A stretch of 64,000 nucleotides of DNA from Chloroflexi bacterium CFX4 (GTDB lineage: Bacteria > Chloroflexota > Anaerolineae > Aggregatilineales > UBA2796), in NCBI GenBank assembly GCA_021404685.1, contig QWHC01000019.1, positions 1 to 64,000 of the forward strand, written 5' to 3'. The notes beneath the pieces were generated by a model. It did no database searches and was not told the DNA's origin. It saw only the letters and a list, made by a program, of their open reading frames with translations. A program made the position numbers and the translations under genes. This document shows, piece after piece, positions 23,881-44,630 of this stretch (the first letter of the stretch is position 1; the number at the start of each line of letters is the position of its first letter).

Positions 23881-23910
23881 GAAAGACAAAGAGCGCCGTT
23901 GTAGCGCTCT
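23881..23910 (-). terminator. Rho-independent terminator of the 121-residue ORF
   Basis: AGAGCGC (23890-23896) pairs with GCGCTCT (23904-23910) across a 7-base loop; on the minus strand the stem runs into TTTGTCTTT. It lies 18 bases after the stop at 23928. Confidence 0.75.
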
Positions 23911-23927
23911 CTGTTGGCTTGCCAACC

Positions 23928-24293
23928 TTAGTTGACCTCAACCTTCACCTTGGTCTTACCGGTGCTGCTTGGGCGCGGCGGCTGATCACCCTCATCGCCC
24001 TCCGCTTTACTACGAGTGCGGTGCATCTCGCGCTCAACGGTGGCACGCGCGCCTTCGATCAGCACTTTGAAGGATTTCAGGTATTCCTCGCGTGCTTCAC
24101 GGCTGTATTTGCGGAAATCCGGCGGAATGAACGCACCGAGTGCCTTTAGGGCTGCCTCCGCCGCTTTACGCTGATGGTGCAAGAAGCCTGCCAACGGTGT
24201 GCGCCCCGTTTCTGGCTGCTCATCGGTTGGCTGTTCGCCTTCGGGCTGTGCGGCAGCCTGCTCAAACTTGGGTTCATCGCTCATGGTGTTCAC
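23928..24293 (-). CDS. Hypothetical charged protein
   Basis: 121 residues, no membrane segment. The N-terminal third is Glu/Gln/Pro-rich and likely disordered; the middle (LAGFLHHQRKAAEAALKALGAFIPPDFRKYSREAREEYLKS is in two adjoining helices) is helical and amphipathic; the C-terminus is basic and ends TKVKVEVN. The pattern of a helical core with disordered ends suggests a small accessory or nucleic-acid/membrane-surface protein, but no family was recognised. It follows the ABC-2-like operon by 76 bases on the same strand and has its own terminator. An internal Met4 start is possible. Confidence 0.7.
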   Translation of the reverse strand: MNTMSDEPKFEQAAAQPEGEQPTDEQPETGRTPLAGFLHHQRKAAEAALKALGAFIPPDFRKYSREAREEYLKSFKVLIEGARATVEREMHRTRSKAEGDEGDQPPRPSSTGKTKVKVEVN

Positions 24294-24369: not shown

Positions 24370-25248
24370 TCACTCTGAACGGAAGGCGTACCGCAGCGCA
24401 AAGCGCAGCATATTCACGCGCAAGAAGTTGTAAAACCAGAAGGTAGTGCCGTACAGCAGCGCAACCATATAAGGGATAAGGCACAGCATGGCGAAGCCAA
24501 AGGTGTCTCGCCCTATGAGCATCACGAACAGCGGAATGCCAATGACCAGAGCGACCTGAATAATGCGAATTGCCAGCAGCATACCAAGTGCTGCCAACAC
24601 AGCATAACCTTCTTGCCGAACGCTGGCAGAAATCGCAAGGCTGACCGCCACAATGGCGCGCATTCGCCACCATGGTTCGCGCACATAAATCACTGCAATG
24701 CCTAGCTGAACAAACAGCACAAAACATATCATCAAAAGATTACTATCAACAAAATTAGTAAAGCGCAGTATGTCTGTTATGGTGACGAATAAAGTAGGCA
24801 CGCCAATCAACAGCGTTGTGAACAGCCGCAAGCTGATCTCCAGCATCAAGATGCGCCATGTGCGGAGCTGCGCGCTGTTGTACTTGGCGTCAAGGATTGC
24901 TTGCGGCTTCAGTGCAGTCAGGCGCAGCAAATCCCACTGACCGCTTCGCATTTCCGCGCCAAGATGCGTGACTGTGGTGAAGACATGGGCAACATCCGCC
25001 GCCAACATCAAGCCAATTGCTCCTAAAATGCTCCACCCGACGATGTTCAAGTGAAGCTGCCCTAATAGTTGCCACTGAATGCCCGTGAAGGCAGAAATGC
25101 CAAGGGCTGCGGCAATTGCGGCGCTCAGGGCGCGCACGCCGAAACGCTGCAACAACTGCAAGCCACCTTGCAAACGCCTTAATTCAACTTCCCAAATTGG
25201 GTTCAGGGCATATTTACCCCGAATTTGCCGCAAAAAACCGTTGATCAT
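24370..25248 (-). CDS. ABC-2-permease-like membrane protein, copy A
   Basis: 292 residues, about seven membrane helices. It shares with its four neighbours an N-terminal NPIWEVELRRL box, an internal WDLLRLTALKPQAILDAKY box followed by RTWR, and a REPWWRMRAI box. The first two match in place and character the NPxxxREL and TLELLLLTPLSxxxIxxGK segments of ABC-2 type export permeases. It is the last gene of the five-gene operon; its ATG is 3 bases after the stop of copy B. No cargo or ATPase can be assigned. Confidence 0.85.
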   Translation of the reverse strand: MINGFLRQIRGKYALNPIWEVELRRLQGGLQLLQRFGVRALSAAIAAALGISAFTGIQWQLLGQLHLNIVGWSILGAIGLMLAADVAHVFTTVTHLGAEMRSGQWDLLRLTALKPQAILDAKYNSAQLRTWRILMLEISLRLFTTLLIGVPTLFVTITDILRFTNFVDSNLLMICFVLFVQLGIAVIYVREPWWRMRAIVAVSLAISASVRQEGYAVLAALGMLLAIRIIQVALVIGIPLFVMLIGRDTFGFAMLCLIPYMVALLYGTTFWFYNFLRVNMLRFALRYAFRSE

Positions 25249-25251
25249 GGG

Positions 25252-26112
25252 CTAGGTACCCATCTCCGCATAGCGCTGTGCTATCCGTATTGCGCGGAAT
25301 TGCAAGTGGCGATAAATGCCAAAAAACAAGAAATAAATCATATAAAGGTTTAGCCAAGGCAGGAATCCCAACAGTACGTTGCCCGAACTGCTTGCCGTGC
25401 CGATCAACCTGCCTTGCTGCGGCAGTGTGACAATGAAAATGATCTGCAACAGGCGCACACCAAAGGCTATCCCAATAGCAGTCAGCAGCGCCATCGTATC
25501 GTCCCGCAGGCGAACAGCCGCCGCAAAGCTGAGGGCAACAACAGCGCGCATTCGCCACAATGGCTCACGGCTATAAGCAAACAACAACAAAGCCGTTGGA
25601 ATAATCAGCAGCCAGCCGGCAGCGAATGTCCAGAAAGGACTTAGCAAAATCATTGACAGGATGAGCATAAAGAGAAGCGCTGCCGATAAGAAATGGCGAA
25701 ATGCCGTTTCTGCCGCCAGCCAGCGCCAGACGCGCCGCTGCCCATTCAGATATTTGCCTTCCACCAGTGCCGCAGCAGGCAGCAGCGTCAGCCGCAGCGC
25801 ATCCCAAAATTCGCCCTGCACATCGCCGCCAAAGCGCGCCGCCAGCACATAGATCACATCCATGCCAAAGCTAACCGCATAACTGAATATCAATGCCACA
25901 AACCACACGCTGAAACCGTTGAACAGGTTGTCTGGCAGGTTTGGCAAGGTAGGCAACGTAAACAGGAACGCCAAACCATAAGCACCAAAGCGCAACCGCT
26001 GCCCAAAGCGCATCAGCCTATCGGACGGCTCGCCCTCATGCTTCAGGGCAAGCCACAGCACCGGGTTAGACTGTGCTGCGCTGAAAATCTCGGCAAGGAC
26101 CTCTCTAAACAT
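25252..26112 (-). CDS. ABC-2-permease-like membrane protein, copy B
   Basis: About 286 residues. Boxes: NPVLWLALKHEG, WDALRLTLLPAAALVEGKY with RRVWRW, and REPLWRMRAVVALSFAA. Start at 26112 (MFREVLAEIF) was chosen since the ATG overlaps the stop of the preceding gene (coupled translation); the frame is open to 26151. About six helices. The GK after the LRLT box is retained here, the closest match of the set to standard ABC-2 permeases. Confidence 0.85.
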   Translation of the reverse strand: MFREVLAEIFSAAQSNPVLWLALKHEGEPSDRLMRFGQRLRFGAYGLAFLFTLPTLPNLPDNLFNGFSVWFVALIFSYAVSFGMDVIYVLAARFGGDVQGEFWDALRLTLLPAAALVEGKYLNGQRRVWRWLAAETAFRHFLSAALLFMLILSMILLSPFWTFAAGWLLIIPTALLLFAYSREPLWRMRAVVALSFAAAVRLRDDTMALLTAIGIAFGVRLLQIIFIVTLPQQGRLIGTASSSGNVLLGFLPWLNLYMIYFLFFGIYRHLQFRAIRIAQRYAEMGT

Positions 26113-27982
26113 CCGACGAGCCTTTCTGATGCGCAGCCTGATTGAGTGCAAAGCGCGCCAGCGATCCGTAGATGGTGAACGTGATGATCATCCACAATGC
26201 CGCCAGACCCAATGGCAATGCCAGCAGGTCACTGCCCGATCCGCCGCCCAGCCAGTATGTATACATGGCATATTGGGTCACAAAAGTTTCTAAGAGTGCT
26301 GCGATTGGCACAATGGCTGCCCGTGCCGGATAAGACAAACTCACTAAAAACATGAATACGGCGGGCAGCACAGCCGCAAGGCAGCCCAAACCGATAACCA
26401 CTAGCCCAACCTGCCGCATACCGCTTTGCGTGGCTGCCCACACGCCAAGCGCCGCAGCCGCCTTCATGCGCCACCACACTTCTGTTATGAAACACAATCC
26501 CATTGTGATCACATAAGGTAGGAAGAGCAGCAACGATAAGCTGCCATTTACCAGCCCACCACCGCCACTTGTAAATGAATGCGCCATACCCACTATCAAT
26601 AGCAACAAGGTAGTAACACGCAAACCAATTTCTAGCAAGGCAAACAGCCATGCCCGCAAGCGCACCATACCATAGGTTGCCTGTGTAAACGCCCATTCAG
26701 GCAGCAAGGTAAGCCGCAGCATCTCATACTGCTCCGAGCGTGTGATGCGTGTAAAGAGTGGCAGTGCTGCATAAGCAAGTGTGCCAAAGGCAGTTGCCAC
26801 CAGAATACCAACACCCATAACGCTATAAATGCCGCTGCGAAGAAAATCTTGGGCAGGCGGGCTTAGCAAGAAGGGCGTGGCTGCTACCGTGATCAGAATC
26901 GGTGCGACCACCAAACCGATCAGGCTCAGGGCGCGCAGCCGCACAAGGGTGAGGCTGAAATTGCCCTCTCGCTGAAAATGCTCAAAGATCGGGTTGGGCT
27001 TGCCGTCAATGGCACTTGCTTCTGCCAGCAGCCACCTGAACGGCAGCCTTTTGAGCAAGGGGCGCGTTTGGCGCTCACGCCTTGCCCGCCACCAACGCCC
27101 AATGCCCGTCACGAGGGCAACGGGCAGCACGAACAGCGCCCACAGCCCGTATTGAAAGACGATGTACATCACCACAGTAAAGCGGTAGCTATCCTTATGG
27201 ATTTCCCACTGCACCCACTCTGGCAAGCGCATAAACCAGATTTCAAGGCGCGCCAAGATGCCTAGTGGTGCGGCGCTTACGTAAATGCCCGTATCGCTCA
27301 GCGGCAGAATTAACACGCCAAACGCCAGAAACGCCACCACACCCACAATCAGCCAGCGCCACACAGCACGGCGCGCCGCTGCAAAGTTCCCAATGCCGAT
27401 GAGCGCCAGCATCCGCACAAATGGCTCCATGCAAAAGACACCAAAGGCAGGCAGCGTGCTGCTGGCGGCGCACAACCAGAAAGTATTGCCATCGGTGCAG
27501 GCGTGCGTCTCTTCTAAGCCTTGCAGCCACATGAACAAACAGACCGCTACGCGCAAGCCGACCTCTAAGACCATGACTTGCCATGCTTGCAAGCGTGCCA
27601 CTGCATCATAAGCGCGGTGGTAGGCTTGGATCGGCAGCGGCGTCAGGCGTAGCATCTCCATATCGGGCGAGTCGGCACGGTGGCGGGCTTGGCGCAAAGG
27701 TGCAAAGAGGTAAACGGCTGTGCCAAGTGGCAGCATCACCGCACTGAGGATGTGCAGCACGTCGAGGACGAGGCGGCGTTGCGGTGAGGTGTACGGCGCG
27801 CTCATCAGGTGCAGAAGGGCGGCAATCAGCGGCAGCCCAAACAGGCAAAACCAGCCCCAACGGGGCAGCCACACCAGCCACTTATCAAGCTGAAAACGCC
27901 GTAACAGATGGATGTAAATCGGATTTGGTGCACCATTCCATGTTTCACCGCCAACACGGAACGCTTTCAAGAAAATATCCAT
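26105..27982 (-). CDS. Fused double ABC-2-permease-like membrane protein, copies C1+C2
   Basis: 625 residues with two complete copies of the family domain in one chain. The first half has NPIYIHLLRRFQ, MEMLRLTPLPIQAYHRAY and EPFVRMLALI; the second has NPIFEHFQREGN, YEMLRLTLLPEWAFTQATY and EVWWRMKAAAAL. Roughly 13 helices with a basic linker (WWRARRERQTRPLLKR) between the halves at about 310. A natural fusion of two permease domains suggests that members work as pairs. It overlaps copy B by 8 bases and starts 18 bases after copy D. Confidence 0.86.
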   Translation of the reverse strand: MDIFLKAFRVGGETWNGAPNPIYIHLLRRFQLDKWLVWLPRWGWFCLFGLPLIAALLHLMSAPYTSPQRRLVLDVLHILSAVMLPLGTAVYLFAPLRQARHRADSPDMEMLRLTPLPIQAYHRAYDAVARLQAWQVMVLEVGLRVAVCLFMWLQGLEETHACTDGNTFWLCAASSTLPAFGVFCMEPFVRMLALIGIGNFAAARRAVWRWLIVGVVAFLAFGVLILPLSDTGIYVSAAPLGILARLEIWFMRLPEWVQWEIHKDSYRFTVVMYIVFQYGLWALFVLPVALVTGIGRWWRARRERQTRPLLKRLPFRWLLAEASAIDGKPNPIFEHFQREGNFSLTLVRLRALSLIGLVVAPILITVAATPFLLSPPAQDFLRSGIYSVMGVGILVATAFGTLAYAALPLFTRITRSEQYEMLRLTLLPEWAFTQATYGMVRLRAWLFALLEIGLRVTTLLLLIVGMAHSFTSGGGGLVNGSLSLLLFLPYVITMGLCFITEVWWRMKAAAALGVWAATQSGMRQVGLVVIGLGCLAAVLPAVFMFLVSLSYPARAAIVPIAALLETFVTQYAMYTYWLGGGSGSDLLALPLGLAALWMIITFTIYGSLARFALNQAAHQKGSSDV

Positions 27983-28000
27983 AGACCTACATACCCGCCT

Positions 28001-28840
28001 TTATCGCTGCGCTGTGCCGCTGCCGATGTGCCTGCCCAACCGATTGAGTGCAACAGTTGCCACGTGAAGGTAAAACCAATAGGTGCCACCAAGCACGCTT
28101 AGAGCGCATAGGGGCAGCCCAAAGATGAAGCCGAGCGTAAACTCGTTGATCAGCACTACCAGCAGCACAGCATAGCAGATGACCAAAAATGCCGCTTGCA
28201 GCACATGCAGCACCAACACGCTGAATGCTGCGCTGATCACGGCTGTCGTCGGATTGGCGAAACGGGTTGCCAGCAGCAGCCCAACGCTGACCACAGCGCG
28301 CATTCGCCACCACACCTCCAGCGCATACATGCCCGCCAGCAGTAAGCCTGTAATGGTCAGTGTGATTGCCAAGGGCACGCCAACTTGCAGTGAGGGCAGC
28401 AGAATCAAGGTTAGCACCGCGCAGCGCAGCGTCAACTCAAAGGCAACCATCCGCCAAACGCGCACTTGTACAACTGCAAATTTGGCGGCGGCAATTTCGT
28501 TGGCAGGCAGGCGTGTTAGGCGCAGTATATCCCATGTGCCGCGCACCATTTCTTGCTGCACGGCATTTACCGCGCTCAGGATGTAGAAGGCGTTGGCTGC
28601 CAACATGACCGCCAGTGTGCCGAAGAAAAGCGCGATCAGCACCGTGTTATAGCGCTCTGAATACGCCGCACCAGACAGGAGGCTCTCTGTGAGCCACCAC
28701 AGCGTTGCAATGCCAATGCCACACAGCAAGATTAGCCAACCATCGCGGCGCAGATGGTCGGGCTGTGTTTGGCGCATGTTCAGGTGATAGAGCGGATTGC
28801 GTGTTGCATAGATGACCTGGTTGAGCAGATAGTTGATCAT
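28001..28840 (-). CDS. ABC-2-permease-like membrane protein, copy D
   Basis: 279 residues, six to seven helices. Boxes: NPLYHLNMRQTQ, WDILRLTRLPANEIAAAKF with RVWRMVAFELTLR, and EVWWRMRAVVSVG. The IAAAK segment matches the coupling region of ABC-2 permeases. Its ATG overlaps the stop of copy E by 4 bases. Confidence 0.85.
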   Translation of the reverse strand: MINYLLNQVIYATRNPLYHLNMRQTQPDHLRRDGWLILLCGIGIATLWWLTESLLSGAAYSERYNTVLIALFFGTLAVMLAANAFYILSAVNAVQQEMVRGTWDILRLTRLPANEIAAAKFAVVQVRVWRMVAFELTLRCAVLTLILLPSLQVGVPLAITLTITGLLLAGMYALEVWWRMRAVVSVGLLLATRFANPTTAVISAAFSVLVLHVLQAAFLVICYAVLLVVLINEFTLGFIFGLPLCALSVLGGTYWFYLHVATVALNRLGRHIGSGTAQR

Positions 28841-29694
28841 TCGTTGGACTCAACGCGCTCAAAGCGGTGCGCCAACGCCTTCAACGCACGTTCGGTCAAT
28901 AACCGATGGCTGCCTCGTATCACTATCCAGAAAACCACACTCACAATGATAAAGCCACAGAATTCGGTCACGGAAATGTCGCTTGTGTATCCCCAGAACG
29001 CGCTACCACTCAGCCACCAGAACGCCATAAACCCACCAAAAACAGCCGCCATAACAATGCCATGCAACATGATGCCAAAAGCGATGCTCAGCAGGCTTGC
29101 TAGGATCGGATCGCGCAGCCGCGTGCCAAACAGAAGCGCACGTGCGCTTAGCGCCCGCATTCGCCACAGAGGCTCCATCCCATAGCAGATGGCATAGGCA
29201 ATGCTCAAGCAAAGCACAGCCACTATAAACAGGTTAAATCTGCCAAAATTGGTGTAGAGGACGATATTCGTTATCACCAGCGCGATAAGGGCAAGCCGTA
29301 CCGCGCACTCAAATGCCATAACACGCCACAAACGCATCTGCAATGCGGCAAATTCGGCGCTGATCACGTCGTGCGCGCTGAGGTTTGTCAGGCGTAGTTC
29401 TTCCCATTGTGTGCCATGCTGTAGTCGCCTTGCTGTAGCAAGCCCGCTAAAAACGTACAGAAAATCTCCCAGCAGAATTAAGACGAATGCCCCGAAGATC
29501 AGGAAGTTGATGAAGCTGTTATAGTTCCAAGAATACTGAGAGAAAAACCCTAAATAAATGCCGAGCGCCACACCTGCAAGGCATATCAAAATGCCATTTG
29601 ACTCAAGGCGGGTTAGGTTTAGCTGCCGAACACGAAGGGCGAAAAGCGGCGTGTTCACCTTCGGAAAAGCTATTTTTAGAACACGATTGAACAT
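28837..29694 (-). CDS. ABC-2-permease-like membrane protein, copy E
   Basis: 285 residues, first gene of the operon. Boxes: NTPLFALRVRQLNL, WEELRLTNLSAHDVISAEF with RLWRVMAFECAVR, and EPLWRMRALSARA. The Lys of the coupling box is replaced (SAEF). AGGAG lies 10 bases upstream of the ATG. Its strong sequence divergence from the other copies, with the boxes kept, points to old duplication and distinct roles rather than recent amplification. Confidence 0.84.
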   Translation of the reverse strand: MFNRVLKIAFPKVNTPLFALRVRQLNLTRLESNGILICLAGVALGIYLGFFSQYSWNYNSFINFLIFGAFVLILLGDFLYVFSGLATARRLQHGTQWEELRLTNLSAHDVISAEFAALQMRLWRVMAFECAVRLALIALVITNIVLYTNFGRFNLFIVAVLCLSIAYAICYGMEPLWRMRALSARALLFGTRLRDPILASLLSIAFGIMLHGIVMAAVFGGFMAFWWLSGSAFWGYTSDISVTEFCGFIIVSVVFWIVIRGSHRLLTERALKALAHRFERVESNE

Positions 29695-29914: not shown

Positions 29915-29987
29915 GCCACCTTAGCTCAATTGGCAGAGCATACGCTTCGTAAGCGTGAGGTTTTGGGTTCAAGTCCCAAAGGTGGCT
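29915..29987 (+). tRNA. tRNA-Thr (CGT)
   Basis: Full cloverleaf of 73 bases: acceptor GCCACCT/AGGTGGC, D-arm GCTC/GAGC, anticodon stem TACGC/GCGTG with loop TTCGTAA (anticodon CGT at 29948-29950, reads ACG), T-arm TTGGG/CCCAA with TTCAAGT. CCA is not encoded. Confidence 0.97.
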
Positions 29988-29991
29988 CACC

Positions 29992-30028
29992 AACCACCCA
30001 ACGTATAAATGTTGGGTGGTTTTTATTT
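29992..30028 (+). terminator. Terminator of tRNA-Thr
   Basis: An 11-bp perfect stem AACCACCCAAC (29992-30002) with 30011-30021, an 8-base loop, then TTTATTT. Its end overlaps the last codons of the convergent VWA gene. Confidence 0.93.
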
Positions 30029-30541
30029 GGCGGTGCGCAGTGTGGTTAGCAACGCATCGGCGGTCAGGTTGCCCACCAATAACACTTGGTCGGCAACGGC
30101 AAGCGTTTCGCGGTTGGCAGCCATGCCGCAGGCAACCGCATAGAGGCGGCGCAAATTTGGGCGCAACGCCTCTAGGGCAGCTTGCCAGTTATCGGTGAAA
30201 TTGCCATCGCTGAACAGATACAAGATGTTGTGTGTGCCTTCGGACAGGCTTTCGGCAAGGCGACGCAGCGCCTTACCTAAATTAGAGGCGCCTGCCGTTT
30301 CGAGCGTGGCAAGGATCAGGCTCACATCGGTCGTAAATTCTTCTGCCTGAGCATCGCTGAGCGGCGTCAGAAGCGTCGGTGTGCTTTCAAAGGTGAGCAG
30401 GCTCACCTTAAGCGGGCGTACGCGGTAGCCTTCAAAGGCGCTCAGCAGCACTTGCACACCCTGCCGCAGCGACTCAAGCGCCGCGCCATTCATAGAGGCA
30501 GAGTGATCAATTAGCACATATACACATAATGGCTCAGCCAT
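30023..30541 (-). CDS. VWA-domain protein (TerY-like)
   Basis: 172 residues, a single von Willebrand A domain. The metal-ion-dependent adhesion site is complete: DHSASM (DxSxS), a Thr/Ser-rich GASNLGKAL segment and LFSDGNF. It has no signal peptide or membrane helix, so it is cytoplasmic, like TerY-type VWA proteins linked to kinase/phosphatase modules. ATG at 30541 was preferred to GTG at 30547. The gene overlaps the end of the Ig-array gene by 8 bases, so the two are translated together. Substrate or partner is not known, but the kinase two genes upstream is the obvious candidate. Confidence 0.88.
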   Translation of the reverse strand: MAEPLCVYVLIDHSASMNGAALESLRQGVQVLLSAFEGYRVRPLKVSLLTFESTPTLLTPLSDAQAEEFTTDVSLILATLETAGASNLGKALRRLAESLSEGTHNILYLFSDGNFTDNWQAALEALRPNLRRLYAVACGMAANRETLAVADQVLLVGNLTADALLTTLRTAK

Positions 30542-33521
30542 TGGCACTGCTCAAGGGCGGTTCAGCGGTTGGCGGCGTGCTGGGTGCAGTGGGCGTTTCG
30601 GATGGGTTCGGCGCGGTTGGTTCGCTGGGCGGCGTGAGTGGTGCAGTCTTAGCGCGCTTTGCCGACTTAATGGCTGCCTCACTCACCTCAACGGCAACTG
30701 CCCACTCGCGCCCATTGCCAACCACCACCAACCCTCGCGGATCTTGCCACGCCGTGCTAAGTTGTTCCGGCAGCCAGCGAACTTCGATGCTCTGTGTTTC
30801 GTTCGGTTCAAGGGTCAGTTCACTCAGCGAAAGCGCCAGCCACGGCGCGCTGTTCAAGGTTAGCGTCCACTCGCGTCCGCCATTGTTAGTCAGCTTTAGT
30901 TTGGCTGCTTTCAGGCTGGTTAGGGTGATTTGCAGCGGCGTAATGCTAAGGCGCGGTGCTGCTTCCACCAATGAAAGCTGCGCGCTAATCTCGAGGCGCT
31001 GCCCGCCGCCTTCAAGGCTGAGCGCGTTCGGCTGCACGCAGACACCGCTTGGCAAATCTACCGCTGTGGTGTTGATCAGCACTTTGAACTCAGCCGCGCT
31101 CATGGGCGGAATGCTCAATTCAAAACTGCGGCGGGCAGTCTCTAGGGAAAGCCACGCGGCATTCAGCGTCACTTCGCCTTGCCACGTTTCCACGCCAGCA
31201 TTCAGAACGCGCACCGACTCAACGGATGGCTCTGCATAAAGCGGATTAACCTTGCCAAAATTAAGCAGTGGTGTTTCTAGGTAGAGTTTGTGCGGTGCAT
31301 CGCGCAAATCAAGCTGCACTGCCACAAAAACAGGCTCACGCACACCACTCAGACTCAGCGCTGCTTCATGGTGGCTAACGCCAAGCGGTATGCTGTTCAT
31401 CTGCCGTTCGTGAATGCTGATCGGAATGTCTATCGCGCTGCCAACGGCACACTCAAAGACGCTGTTTGGTACAGCCAACCATGCCGCATGGCGTTGTACT
31501 GTGCCGCGCCAAACGGAAGGGCCTGTGTTGTAAACGCGCAAGGTTGCCTCGCTAGGCGGCTCGCCACGCACAAAAGGCGGAAAATACACGGGGCGCGCCG
31601 TCAGAAACGGCGGACGCTCCACAAGGATCATCGAGACAGGCACCGCCGCCGCAAAAGGCGCGCTGCGCGAGTCGCTCTTAATATGAATGGCGTCCAGCGG
31701 CACGGGCGTATCCAACGGAATGGCGTCGGGAATATCTAGCAGTTCAAGGCGGATCCGCGCTGTTTGTCCGTAAGGCACACTGAGCGTTGGCGCGCTGATC
31801 TCGCCGCTGAGTTCTCCGCCGCTCGCGTCGATAATCTGCACCCAACCGCGTTCAGGGCGCAGCGTGCCATGCCAATCCGCCGCGCCTTCGTTCCGCACCT
31901 CGATGAAGGCGCTTGGCAAGTCCATGTTGCGCTCAACTTCATCAAAGCGCACTTCTTCGGTGAGCAGGCGCAAATGACCACGCGGCGGCAGCACTTCAAT
32001 GCGCGCTGCAATTGGCACATCAGGGAAAACACCGCCGCCGTCAATGATCAGTGCGTCTGCGATCTCGTGAATGCCGCTTGGCAGCATATCTGCCTCGTGC
32101 GCCGCCTCCCAACGCAAACTTAGCCCAACCTGCACAAAGGTTTCCGACCATGCCTCACCGCTGATTGGTATTGGCGAAAGCACGCTCAGCCATGGCACTG
32201 TGGCATACACTTCACCTGACCACGCACCGCGCCCTAAATTAGCAATGCTAAATTCAAGTGAGCGTTCGGTCAGCCAGCCGGCTTCCACCTGACCCAGATC
32301 GAGTATCTCGGTGTGTAGGGCAACTTCAGGACGCTGCACACTCAGATGCACATCTACGCCATACACCTGATTGGCGCCTGCCACCAACAAACCACCTGAA
32401 ACAATGTAGTCGGCATTGGGCAGATTCAGCGCTTCCTTATTCAGGCTGATCAGCCATGTGTGCGTGCGGTTGGGTGGCAGGCGAAACTGTCCATCAGGCG
32501 AGACGCCGATATAAGGCACAATGGGTATGATCTCGCCTTTCCAGCCAACCTTAAGCGTCTGCAAAGTCAAGGGCACTGGTTCAGGAAAGCGATCTGAAAA
32601 ACGCTCGAAATGAAGGCTGGTCGGCACTTCGATGCTAGGTGGTTCAGCCGCCTGTGTCACTTGAATCGCCACCTCACCAATGTTCAGCATGTCATGGTCG
32701 TGCAGCAGGCGGCGCACACCACGCGGAATTGGTGTGCCATTCAGCTTGACGGGTAGCGGCGGATCGGACGGCATGAACAAGAACAAGGCGCCACTCGGAT
32801 CGCGCTGAACGAAGCAGTAATCACCTTCCGGCAGCGTTCCAACCGCAAGGGCGGCAAAATGTGCGGCTGAGAGCATCATGCCGCTATAAGGTGGATAGAG
32901 GCGGTGCTTTTTAAGGGCAAGGCACAGCAAGCGCTCTGGTGGCGATTGATCCAGCACGGTGCCGGTTAACCACAAGTAGCGCGTGTGGTCACCTTCGCGC
33001 ACTGTGATCTCGCCAAGCAGCACTTCGCCCTTTTGAAGCGCCTGCCCATCTAAGGTGAGCAGCAGGGTGTGCGTGCCGCGCCCGCTAAGGATGGTCGGCT
33101 CAATTTTTGCGCCGTGCAAGCCGCTCACGCTTAGTTCGGTGCGCGCACGCACAGTTAGGCGCAGCGGCAAACTCACAGGTGCGCCGGGCAGCAGTTCGCC
33201 TAAGTTGATCAGGGTGTTGTCGTCTAACTGCATGGATTTTTCCCCAGTCGGCAGGCATTCAGCGTCATGCACAACCATAACACCAGCTTGCACTGTCCGT
33301 TCGATCAACAGATTCTCCAAGCGCACATTCGGCGCACGGACGTATACCACTGGCGCTGCCTGCCGCCAAAGCACCGTTTGGCGTTTCTGGCCGCGCAGCA
33401 CCAACGGCTTTTCAATGACGAAAACGCCGCCATATTCACCAATTGCCAAGCTGATCAGGCTGTTTGGCTCGGCAGCGCGCAAGGCGGCAGTTAATTCAGC
33501 GGCGGAACTCACATGCAGCAT
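30534..33521 (-). CDS. Giant cytoplasmic Ig-like array protein with beta-helix N-terminus
   Basis: About 995 residues and no signal peptide or membrane helix. N-terminal 70 residues look like the start of a pectin-lyase beta-helix (SLISLAIGEYGGVFVIEKPLVLRG in two strands). An FHA-like strand set follows (LNGTPIPRG and HDHDMLNIG, about 260-300) but the phosphothreonine-binding Arg/Ser/His were not found. Then six BACON/Ig-like repeats of about 110 residues, each with the pattern V-x-N-x-G-x(3)-W-x-G and WLSV or WLAV. A Pro/Thr/Glu tail ends the chain. Start at 33521 lies 9 bases past the kinase stop. Likely a scaffold for the kinase and VWA protein; inference only. Confidence 0.82.
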   Translation of the reverse strand: MLHVSSAAELTAALRAAEPNSLISLAIGEYGGVFVIEKPLVLRGQKRQTVLWRQAAPVVYVRAPNVRLENLLIERTVQAGVMVVHDAECLPTGEKSMQLDDNTLINLGELLPGAPVSLPLRLTVRARTELSVSGLHGAKIEPTILSGRGTHTLLLTLDGQALQKGEVLLGEITVREGDHTRYLWLTGTVLDQSPPERLLCLALKKHRLYPPYSGMMLSAAHFAALAVGTLPEGDYCFVQRDPSGALFLFMPSDPPLPVKLNGTPIPRGVRRLLHDHDMLNIGEVAIQVTQAAEPPSIEVPTSLHFERFSDRFPEPVPLTLQTLKVGWKGEIIPIVPYIGVSPDGQFRLPPNRTHTWLISLNKEALNLPNADYIVSGGLLVAGANQVYGVDVHLSVQRPEVALHTEILDLGQVEAGWLTERSLEFSIANLGRGAWSGEVYATVPWLSVLSPIPISGEAWSETFVQVGLSLRWEAAHEADMLPSGIHEIADALIIDGGGVFPDVPIAARIEVLPPRGHLRLLTEEVRFDEVERNMDLPSAFIEVRNEGAADWHGTLRPERGWVQIIDASGGELSGEISAPTLSVPYGQTARIRLELLDIPDAIPLDTPVPLDAIHIKSDSRSAPFAAAVPVSMILVERPPFLTARPVYFPPFVRGEPPSEATLRVYNTGPSVWRGTVQRHAAWLAVPNSVFECAVGSAIDIPISIHERQMNSIPLGVSHHEAALSLSGVREPVFVAVQLDLRDAPHKLYLETPLLNFGKVNPLYAEPSVESVRVLNAGVETWQGEVTLNAAWLSLETARRSFELSIPPMSAAEFKVLINTTAVDLPSGVCVQPNALSLEGGGQRLEISAQLSLVEAAPRLSITPLQITLTSLKAAKLKLTNNGGREWTLTLNSAPWLALSLSELTLEPNETQSIEVRWLPEQLSTAWQDPRGLVVVGNGREWAVAVEVSEAAIKSAKRAKTAPLTPPSEPTAPNPSETPTAPSTPPTAEPPLSSANG

Positions 33522-33532
33522 GGTGTGCCGTG

Positions 33533-34921
33533 CTAAACACTTTGCATTGTCACAAGGGCAAGGCGTGCTGTATTGCCCGTGCCAAGCAGCCACTTTTGCC
33601 CTTCGCGGAGCGGCAAGGCAGCCCCCAGCCCTATCGGCTGTACGCTACCCGTATCTGCCACCCGCAACTGCTCTAGGGCAAGGTTATGCAGCAGCCAGCC
33701 GTGCCGCTGATCATACTGGAATTCCACCAATGGCGCCCGATCTTCGGCACGATTTGCCTCATGTTCAGAGAAATTGCTCTGCACATGCCAGCGGTGCAGC
33801 GAACGGCTTTGCCAGCCGACAATGCGCCCCTTATCCTGCTGGAAATGCCCTGTTTGCCCAACGCCCGAATAGAGGCGCAGCACGGGAATCTGCTTTGGAT
33901 AGCTGATGCGCGTGTTGCACCATGGGCAAACCGCGGGATGATCGCGCAGCAGGATGAACGCCTTGCCGCTGCACTGTGGGTTGAAGCACGGCACATGCTG
34001 ATCTGCCATACGGAGCAGGGCATCGCGCCACATGGCAGCCACAGGGCGCTTGCTTGGGTCGTGCAGACCAACTGTGAAGGTGCGGCGCATCAGGCTTTCC
34101 ACTTCCTCGCCAAGCAGCCATGCGCCGCGAAATGGGTCTTTGGGGCGATTGGATCGGTCGGTTGGGTCTTCGGTGTAAAGCGCCTTCTCGCCAAAGGCCA
34201 GTTGATCGTCGCGCTCTGGGTTATCGGGATCGTGAACTTTGGGTCCGCGCAGTGGGTGGCGCATCAACAAGAGCTGGTAGATTAGCACGGCAAGCGAGTG
34301 TAAGTCCGACTGAATGGATGGACGAATATCGCGTTGTTTGTACATATGAGCGGTCACGATTTCAGGCGCCATGTATTCGGCTGTCCCGATCATGGATGGT
34401 GGCAGCACATCTGGCACCACCAAACCATCTAGGTCAATCAGCACCGCGCGATGGCGGGCCACATTCGCCATGAAATTCCCGCCCGAAAAATCCGAGTGGC
34501 ACAAACCAACGCCGTGCAACTTCCACGCGATGCGCGCCATCTCGCTGGCAATGCAAGTGCGATCAAACCAATTGCCGCGCATATCCTCAGGCACACGCGC
34601 AAGCGCCTTCGGCGTGAACCACCACGTCAGGTCTTTGTGCGGCATGTCGCGGTTGATATTCAACATCCGCACGCCAAGCGAGGGACGGCGCACAATGCCG
34701 TTGATCCATGCAAAGAGCGCCACCGTGCTCGGATCATGCCGTGTGACGTTCAAATCACCCATAATCTTCTGTAAAGCAGGCAGGCGCGCCCGATCTTCCT
34801 GGTGATAGAGCTTGATCACATGCCGTTCATCACGCGAACGGTAGAGTCTGCCTTGTCCACCTTCGGCGAAAGGATTGTCTTCGTAGTCTTCGGTTGTGCC
34901 GTCGTCCAGTGCAATCCGCAT
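33533..34921 (-). CDS. Ser/Thr protein kinase-like protein with C-terminal zinc ribbon
   Basis: 462 residues. Divergent eukaryotic-type kinase: Gly-rich EGGQGRLYRS (20-29), Lys37 in VIKLY, catalytic loop CHSDFSGGNF (His142, Asp144, Asn149), metal-binding DLDG (163-166, in place of DFG) and APE at about 185. The essential residues are all there. A four-Cys zinc ribbon follows (C312, C317, C332, C335), then a roughly 120-residue beta-rich end with LVEFQYDQRHGWLLHN. No membrane helix, unlike most bacterial PknB-type kinases. This architecture recalls kinases of TerY-type modules. It is the first gene of the three-gene cluster. Confidence 0.87.
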   Translation of the reverse strand: MRIALDDGTTEDYEDNPFAEGGQGRLYRSRDERHVIKLYHQEDRARLPALQKIMGDLNVTRHDPSTVALFAWINGIVRRPSLGVRMLNINRDMPHKDLTWWFTPKALARVPEDMRGNWFDRTCIASEMARIAWKLHGVGLCHSDFSGGNFMANVARHRAVLIDLDGLVVPDVLPPSMIGTAEYMAPEIVTAHMYKQRDIRPSIQSDLHSLAVLIYQLLLMRHPLRGPKVHDPDNPERDDQLAFGEKALYTEDPTDRSNRPKDPFRGAWLLGEEVESLMRRTFTVGLHDPSKRPVAAMWRDALLRMADQHVPCFNPQCSGKAFILLRDHPAVCPWCNTRISYPKQIPVLRLYSGVGQTGHFQQDKGRIVGWQSRSLHRWHVQSNFSEHEANRAEDRAPLVEFQYDQRHGWLLHNLALEQLRVADTGSVQPIGLGAALPLREGQKWLLGTGNTARLALVTMQSV

Positions 34922-43892: not shown

Positions 43893-44630
43893 TTAGGCGA
43901 GGCTGATTTGCGCCCGAAGTTGTGAGGCGAGGCTGCCAAATTCAGGCGAATGCACCATCTCTAAATGGCGTGGGCGCGCCAACGGCACACTGATCTCTGT
44001 GTGCAGCCTGCCCGGACGCGCTGTCAGCACCACCACACGATCCGCCATAAAGATCGCCTCTGTAATGCTATGCGTCACCATCAGGATCGTCTTGCCGGTG
44101 TGCTGCCAAAGCTGGAGCAATTCAAGCTGCATGTGTTCGCGTGTCATGGCGTCCAGCGCGCCGAATGGCTCATCCATCAGCAGCACGGACGGATTCTGGA
44201 CAAGGGCGCGTCCGAGCGCGGCGCGTTGCGCCATACCGCCGGAAAGCTGGCTCGGATACACTTCAGCAAAGTCTGCCAAGCCGATTTGATGCAGCACACG
44301 CTCAGCCGTGGTGCGGCGTTCAGGGCGCGAGATGCCACGCAGGGCAAGCGGCAGTTCCACATTGGCGCGTGTGCTGAGGTAGGGCAGCAGGTTCGGCTGC
44401 TGAAAGAGGATGCCGATCTCGCGGCGCGGCGTATTGATAGGCGCGCCGTTCAAAGTGACGCGCCCACGGCTGGCGCCGATCAAACCGGCTGCAATCTTGA
44501 GCAAGGTCGTTTTGCCGCAGCCGCTCGGACCGACAAGGCAGACAAACGCACCATCTGGCACGTCAAAGCTAATGTTGGAGAGTGCCTCTAGCGTGCCAAA
44601 GCGCTGCGAAACTGCCTCAAAGCGCAACAT
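43893..44630 (-). CDS. ABC transporter ATPase of the riboflavin importer
   Basis: 245 residues, NitT/TauT/ThiZ-type ATPase. Walker A GPSGCGKTTLL, Q-loop LFQQPNLLP, signature LSGGMAQRAALGRAL, Walker B LLMDEPFGALD, H-loop VTHSITEA. It starts 2 bases after the binding-protein gene and completes the set ribX-ribY-ATPase, all under the FMN riboswitch. The specificity for riboflavin comes from the riboswitch, not from this subunit. Confidence 0.92.
   Translation of the reverse strand: MLRFEAVSQRFGTLEALSNISFDVPDGAFVCLVGPSGCGKTTLLKIAAGLIGASRGRVTLNGAPINTPRREIGILFQQPNLLPYLSTRANVELPLALRGISRPERRTTAERVLHQIGLADFAEVYPSQLSGGMAQRAALGRALVQNPSVLLMDEPFGALDAMTREHMQLELLQLWQHTGKTILMVTHSITEAIFMADRVVVLTARPGRLHTEISVPLARPRHLEMVHSPEFGSLASQLRAQISLA

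Follow-up and report, generated by a model that had tools for sequence, protein, structure and literature searches.

ABC exporters are normally built from a membrane part and an ATPase, and in ABC-2 transporters the coupling helix sits in the loop between transmembrane segments (TM) 2 and 3. In Flavobacterium, GldA (Fjoh_1516) is encoded apart from GldF/GldG (Fjoh_2722/2721), and the same work reports the membrane localisation of GldA (PMC9127263). MsmK is a single ATPase that energises several transporters without ATPases of their own (PMC4519317). Here we describe an array of six ABC-2-like membrane domains with no ATPase beside it.

The stretch analyzed (the window, 64,000 nucleotides) lies on contig C14 of a 4.35-Mb genome in 39 contigs. 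Five genes on its minus strand, spanning 24370–29694, encode six homologous membrane domains, one of the genes being a fused pair. The gene coordinates and spacing confirm the layout given in the original prediction, namely five minus-strand genes, one a fused double, with short overlaps or gaps:

28837–29694, minus strand: domain A, 285 aa, first gene of the operon, ABC-2-like permease subunit with six predicted TM segments
28001–28840, minus strand: domain B, 279 aa, 4-base overlap with A
26105–27982, minus strand: fused double C1+C2, 625 aa, 18-base gap to B (C1 half 27068–27982; C2 half 26105–27067)
25252–26151, minus strand: domain E, start as listed TTG
24370–25248, minus strand: domain F, 292 aa, 3-base gap to E
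23928–24293, minus strand: gene for a 121-aa soluble protein, after the domain F gene
23886–23914, minus strand: terminator-like stem of 12 pairs, 3' of the 121-aa gene
29915–29988, plus strand: tRNA-Thr (CGT), opposite strand to the operon

A simple hydropathy scan finds five to seven hydrophobic segments in each of the six domains. The C1+C2 fusion is a natural two-domain unit; no alignment placed relatives on both of its halves. For domain E, the ATG at 26112 is favored by the relatives as the likelier start over the TTG, and would overlap the C gene by 8 bases. The transcript probably begins between 29694 and the tRNA-Thr gene, has the 121-aa gene probably as its last, and ends at the stem at 23914–23886, with the reservation that these scans are consensus matches only and that terminator-like sites overall do not exceed shuffles (12 found vs 10.4 expected). 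The tRNA-Thr gene stands between the operon and the upstream kinase/Ig-like/VWA genes, which we count as another unit. That group (30023–34921, minus strand) encodes a small VWA protein of 174 aa, a protein of 1019 aa whose Ig-like matches are weak, and a protein kinase of 462 aa; PADLOC returned weak matches for it, to the kinase only, and nothing for the permeases tested.

The six domains are homologous beyond chance, with a best pairwise BLASTP E of 2e-26, Smith–Waterman z-scores of 9 to 30 for all pairs but one, and reversed controls at noise. The exception, E–C1, is weak, with a Smith–Waterman z of 3.7, and C1 and C2 are the most diverged copies. Three boxes had been predicted for every domain, and only LRLTxL is found in 6/6. 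The NP pair is replaced by NTP in A and RxW by QAW in C1, and the strict EPxWRMRA form is confined to A, E, and F, with EVWWRMRA in B, EVWWRMKA in C2, and EPFVRMLA in C1. Across the six domains and their close relatives in other genomes (the core family), conservation is highest at WRMRA in TM4, the LRLT helix, RxWR, and the NP segment. The newly conserved positions, in B numbering, are W129, R130, R139, E175, W178, and R179–R181. When 12-residue windows of the core family are ranked by conservation, the LRLT segment comes second, an argument for continued selection on a coupling-type contact.

No ABC ATPase is encoded in the operon or next to it, as had been predicted. The nearest in the window, at 43893–44630, is 14 kb away and part of an NMT1/BPD_transp_1 importer. 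A general ABC ATPase profile was built from the window genome and run on the fetched loci, and within the fetched flanks, which reach at most ∼12 kb, a same-strand ABC ATPase was detected at 0 of 17 core loci (16 plus the window); seven of these loci lie less than 4 kb from a contig end (L034, L035, L036, L038, L043, L045, L047), with L043 and L045 almost at the end. The core loci of G001 and G002 are the only ones with any ABC ATPase, a 237-aa protein encoded ∼1.1 kb away and convergent with the operon. It was rejected as the motor because it is on the opposite strand and LolD/MacB-like, with an 88% relative on C6 in the window genome.

Distant relatives at the class level are arranged differently from the core loci; they stand directly behind an ABC ATPase of 316–346 aa, one to four in tandem, with a same-strand ATPase within 100 bases in 9/9 cases (the linked permeases). 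Homologous operons that regularly include an ATPase were thus found only in a distant, separate clade, so the original finding stands. Six of the nine linked loci also encode a DUF58 protein (tested in L083), a large protein that in L083 is of the DUF4350/DUF7408 kind, and a P-loop protein, putatively MoxR from its position. The DUF4350/DUF58-type cluster at L083:5373–10048, from another Anaerolineae genome, holds four tandem ABC-2-like permeases behind one ATPase. A literature search on MoxR, DUF58, DUF4350, and ABC permeases returned no paper on the linked cluster itself. In the window genome, an ABC2_membrane_2 and SpoIIM domain fusion (L123:3900–5444) is encoded directly behind an ABC ATPase.

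We compared the core family with ABC-2 permeases by profile and by structure. Searches of 30 core members against Pfam and NCBIfam gave no ABC-2 match (Pfam E < 0.1), the proteins of the operon have no meaningful Pfam match, and for Pfam ABC2_membrane_2/3/4 we obtained sub-threshold matches from distant relatives only, which at the curated cut-offs leaves the core family outside those families. Profile–profile comparison with hhalign identifies it as homologous to permeases that adjoin an ABC ATPase: the alignment to the type I linked permeases covers 202 columns (98.4%, E 4e-15), and E is 2.5e-13 for the pooled linked permeases and 6e-7 for type II. Against PDB sequences, the linked-permease profile matches NosY (E 0.0025) and the core-family profile has no match. 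The AlphaFold models of B (pLDDT 91.5, pTM 0.88) and F (pLDDT 91.2, pTM 0.88) consist of six long helices, with a short helix at the LRLT box (residues 102–108 in B and 104–108 in F) between TM2 and TM3, which is where ABC-2 permeases contact their ATPase. A Foldseek search of the PDB ranks NosY first for both models (probability 1.00), followed by ABCG25, ABCG2, CcmB, and other ABC membrane domains. Every one of the first 21 matches of B and the first 38 of F is a chain of an ABC transporter, in most cases with the ABC-2 fold; the matches have a best E of 0.02–0.04, none below 0.001, and TM-scores to solved permeases below 0.5. These structural scores are insufficient alone. Taken together with the sequence profile, they make an ABC-2 (type V) fold well supported for the core family, in that the models have six TM segments and a putative coupling helix between TM2 and TM3, and the nearest solved structures are ABC-2 permeases. 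The resemblance to ABC-2 export permeases, first noticed in short sequence segments, is therefore borne out.

The coupling site of the core family is retained yet altered, because its conservation peaks are shared only in part with those of the linked permeases. The latter are most conserved in the NP segment, in the equivalent helix, and in PALTAxxISxE, a motif missing from the core family. Likewise, the core family does not conserve an acidic ExE ahead of the coupling helix that is well conserved in the linked permeases.

A profile of the six domains finds no further full copy in the window genome and one weak relative on C5 (L049), with no ATPase in its fetched neighborhood. Distant ABC-2-like proteins 341–373 aa long form a second set (L049:7835–8956, L051:8044–9099, L052:7826–8851, and L098:9184–10233), which also has no linked ATPase in the stretches fetched. 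Among 60 relatives searched, three of the four from the same genus carry the core family, as do G005, G008, and G009 of the same family and G024 of a neighboring family, to which G018 adds one. G005 has seven matches and G009 nine, one or two of them weak, and the many copies per genome lie at scattered loci with unrelated neighbors. A search of 400 genomes of the phylum at E 1e-10, with few candidates scored per genome, gave no new core-family genome or locus. As far as searched, the core family does not extend beyond a single Anaerolineae family, apart from a few genomes of the neighboring one.

Gene order within the genus is A-B-E in G002, A-B in G001, B-E in G004, and A-B-C1C2-E-F in the window. 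The view that the copies are very diverged and not a recent amplification is upheld, as orthologues are present elsewhere in the genus for A (two other species), B (three), and E (two). In the tree, the A, B, and E lineages have support of 100/99–100 and the whole core family of 100/100, and the core family forms its own clade outside the linked permeases rather than nested among them. We considered whether the core family arose when type I permeases were relocated; as the tree does not nest it there, we do not claim this. The gene for the 121-aa protein adjoins the core family in two other species. This protein, which has no Pfam match, was rejected as a dedicated partner because it is present in 13/13 related genomes searched, including those without the core family, and it is probably just a neighbor.

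We lean, by a modest degree, toward energization in trans, with the core family being a new family of ABC-2 membrane subunits that is restricted to this lineage and has no ATPase of its own. This reading builds on the observed homology, the modeled fold, the lack of a linked ATPase, and the conservation of the operon. Each of the six domains would be a membrane subunit with the NosY-like export fold of ABC-2 (type V), in a family of their own. They would most likely pair as homodimers or heterodimers, the C1–C2 pair presumably being fixed by the fusion, and they would borrow a DrrA-type ATPase encoded elsewhere in the genome. Its docking sites would be the conserved NP segment at the N-terminus and the LRLT helix that lies between TM2 and TM3. 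The activity of the six-domain set would then be export. Against this, ExE is not conserved, WRMRA and RxWR are newly conserved, the core clade is not nested among the linked permeases, and TM-scores to solved permeases stay under 0.5.

Among the fetched loci of the window genome, a single ATPase is of the linked type (469 bits vs 254 for the next best), and it is the best candidate motor:

contig C11, near 317,242–318,276: candidate ATPase, DrrA-type, 344 aa

Its cluster has one type II permease and none of type I, together with a DUF4350-type protein and other genes of the cluster. In other Anaerolineae, the genes for its orthologues immediately precede those for relatives of the six domains. 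The genome search for a co-occurring ATPase, proposed at the outset, failed to point to it: the C11-type ATPase is present in 14/14 relatives searched, four of which (G003, G006, G007, G010) belong to the same family and have no core-family member, so it is not singled out by co-occurrence. There is one type II permease in each of 14/14 genomes searched, the window genome included. In G005 and G009, which have the most core copies, the C11-type ATPase and the type II permease are on different contigs. A GldF-like permease and a GldA-like ATPase, adjacent in G001–G004, are also unlinked in the window genome, where the former is on C11 (C11:164073–164795, L188) and the latter on C23 (L119:2624–3550); misjoins are possible in metagenome-assembled genomes, and both genes are well inside their contigs. 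Because ATPase and permease genes do become separated in these bacteria, coupling in trans is plausible. The C23 ATPase at first looked like an orphan, but its GldF-like permease is on C11, which makes it a weaker candidate motor.

The main rival to an ATPase in trans is that the domains descend from ABC-2 permeases and have lost ATP coupling. They would now act without an ABC ATPase, for instance as a channel or a membrane scaffold, or together with another membrane machine, and the former ATPase face would be reused. We regard this as possible and the less probable of the two. It is consistent with the lack of a linked ATPase at all 17 core loci, with the lack of ExE conservation and the dominance of new conserved positions, and with the many scattered copies among unrelated neighbors. 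It is harder to reconcile with the LRLT helix, still among the most conserved parts at the coupling position, and with the retained NP segment and six-TM plan. The original prediction had offered both an ATPase elsewhere and a loss of coupling; both alternatives remain live, and an ATPase elsewhere is favored. That coupling was shed, the former ATPase face was turned to another partner, and the operon forms a multisubunit membrane complex unlike a dimeric ABC exporter is, in our estimate, unlikely. Far less probable still is an ordinary linked ABC exporter whose ATPase gene was lost locally or in assembly. Distant relatives do have a linked ATPase, which would fit, but the operons of the genus (A-B-E, A-B, and B-E) and all other core loci are also without one, and the window operon is complete and away from the contig ends. 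The three orthologous lineages shared with other species indicate that the arrangement is old and not a local loss, and the 17-locus survey largely refutes this explanation. That the proteins have an unrelated membrane fold and resemble ABC-2 segments by chance, as the empty Pfam and NCBIfam searches and the low Foldseek scores might suggest, is scarcely credible against the 202-column alignment to ATPase-linked permeases and the unbroken run of ABC transporter chains among the first structural matches.

The core family thus comprises lineage-restricted, diverged membrane parts set in an array, with no ATPase beside them at the loci examined. If the favored reading of an ATPase in trans is right, one motor would serve many membrane partners in the exporter class, of which, to our knowledge, few cases are known. 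If coupling was lost, the ABC fold would have been freed from ATP.

Among known systems, MsmK differs from the core family in serving sugar importers, not ABC-2 exporters. GldA/GldF/GldG resembles the proposal made here in that an ABC permease has its ATPase encoded elsewhere, whereas it has one permease set rather than an array and is no close sequence relative. The linked Anaerolineae ABC-2 permeases, of types I and II, from clusters with a DUF4350-type protein, a DrrA-type ATPase, ABC-2 permeases, and DUF58, are homologous to the core family and of similar length, share the NP segment and a W-[DE]-x-L-x-x-T helix, and also occur in tandem (four in L083). Unlike the core family, they directly follow an ATPase, keep ExE and PALTA, are without WRMRA, and fall outside the core clade. 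NosY, of the NosDFY(L) complex (PDB 7o0y, 7qba, 7znq), works with the ATPase NosF in the same complex, has TM-scores of 0.3–0.5, and is not matched by the core-family sequence profile, whereas it is the best structural match of the B and F models and shares with them the six-TM plan and the TM2–TM3 coupling helix.
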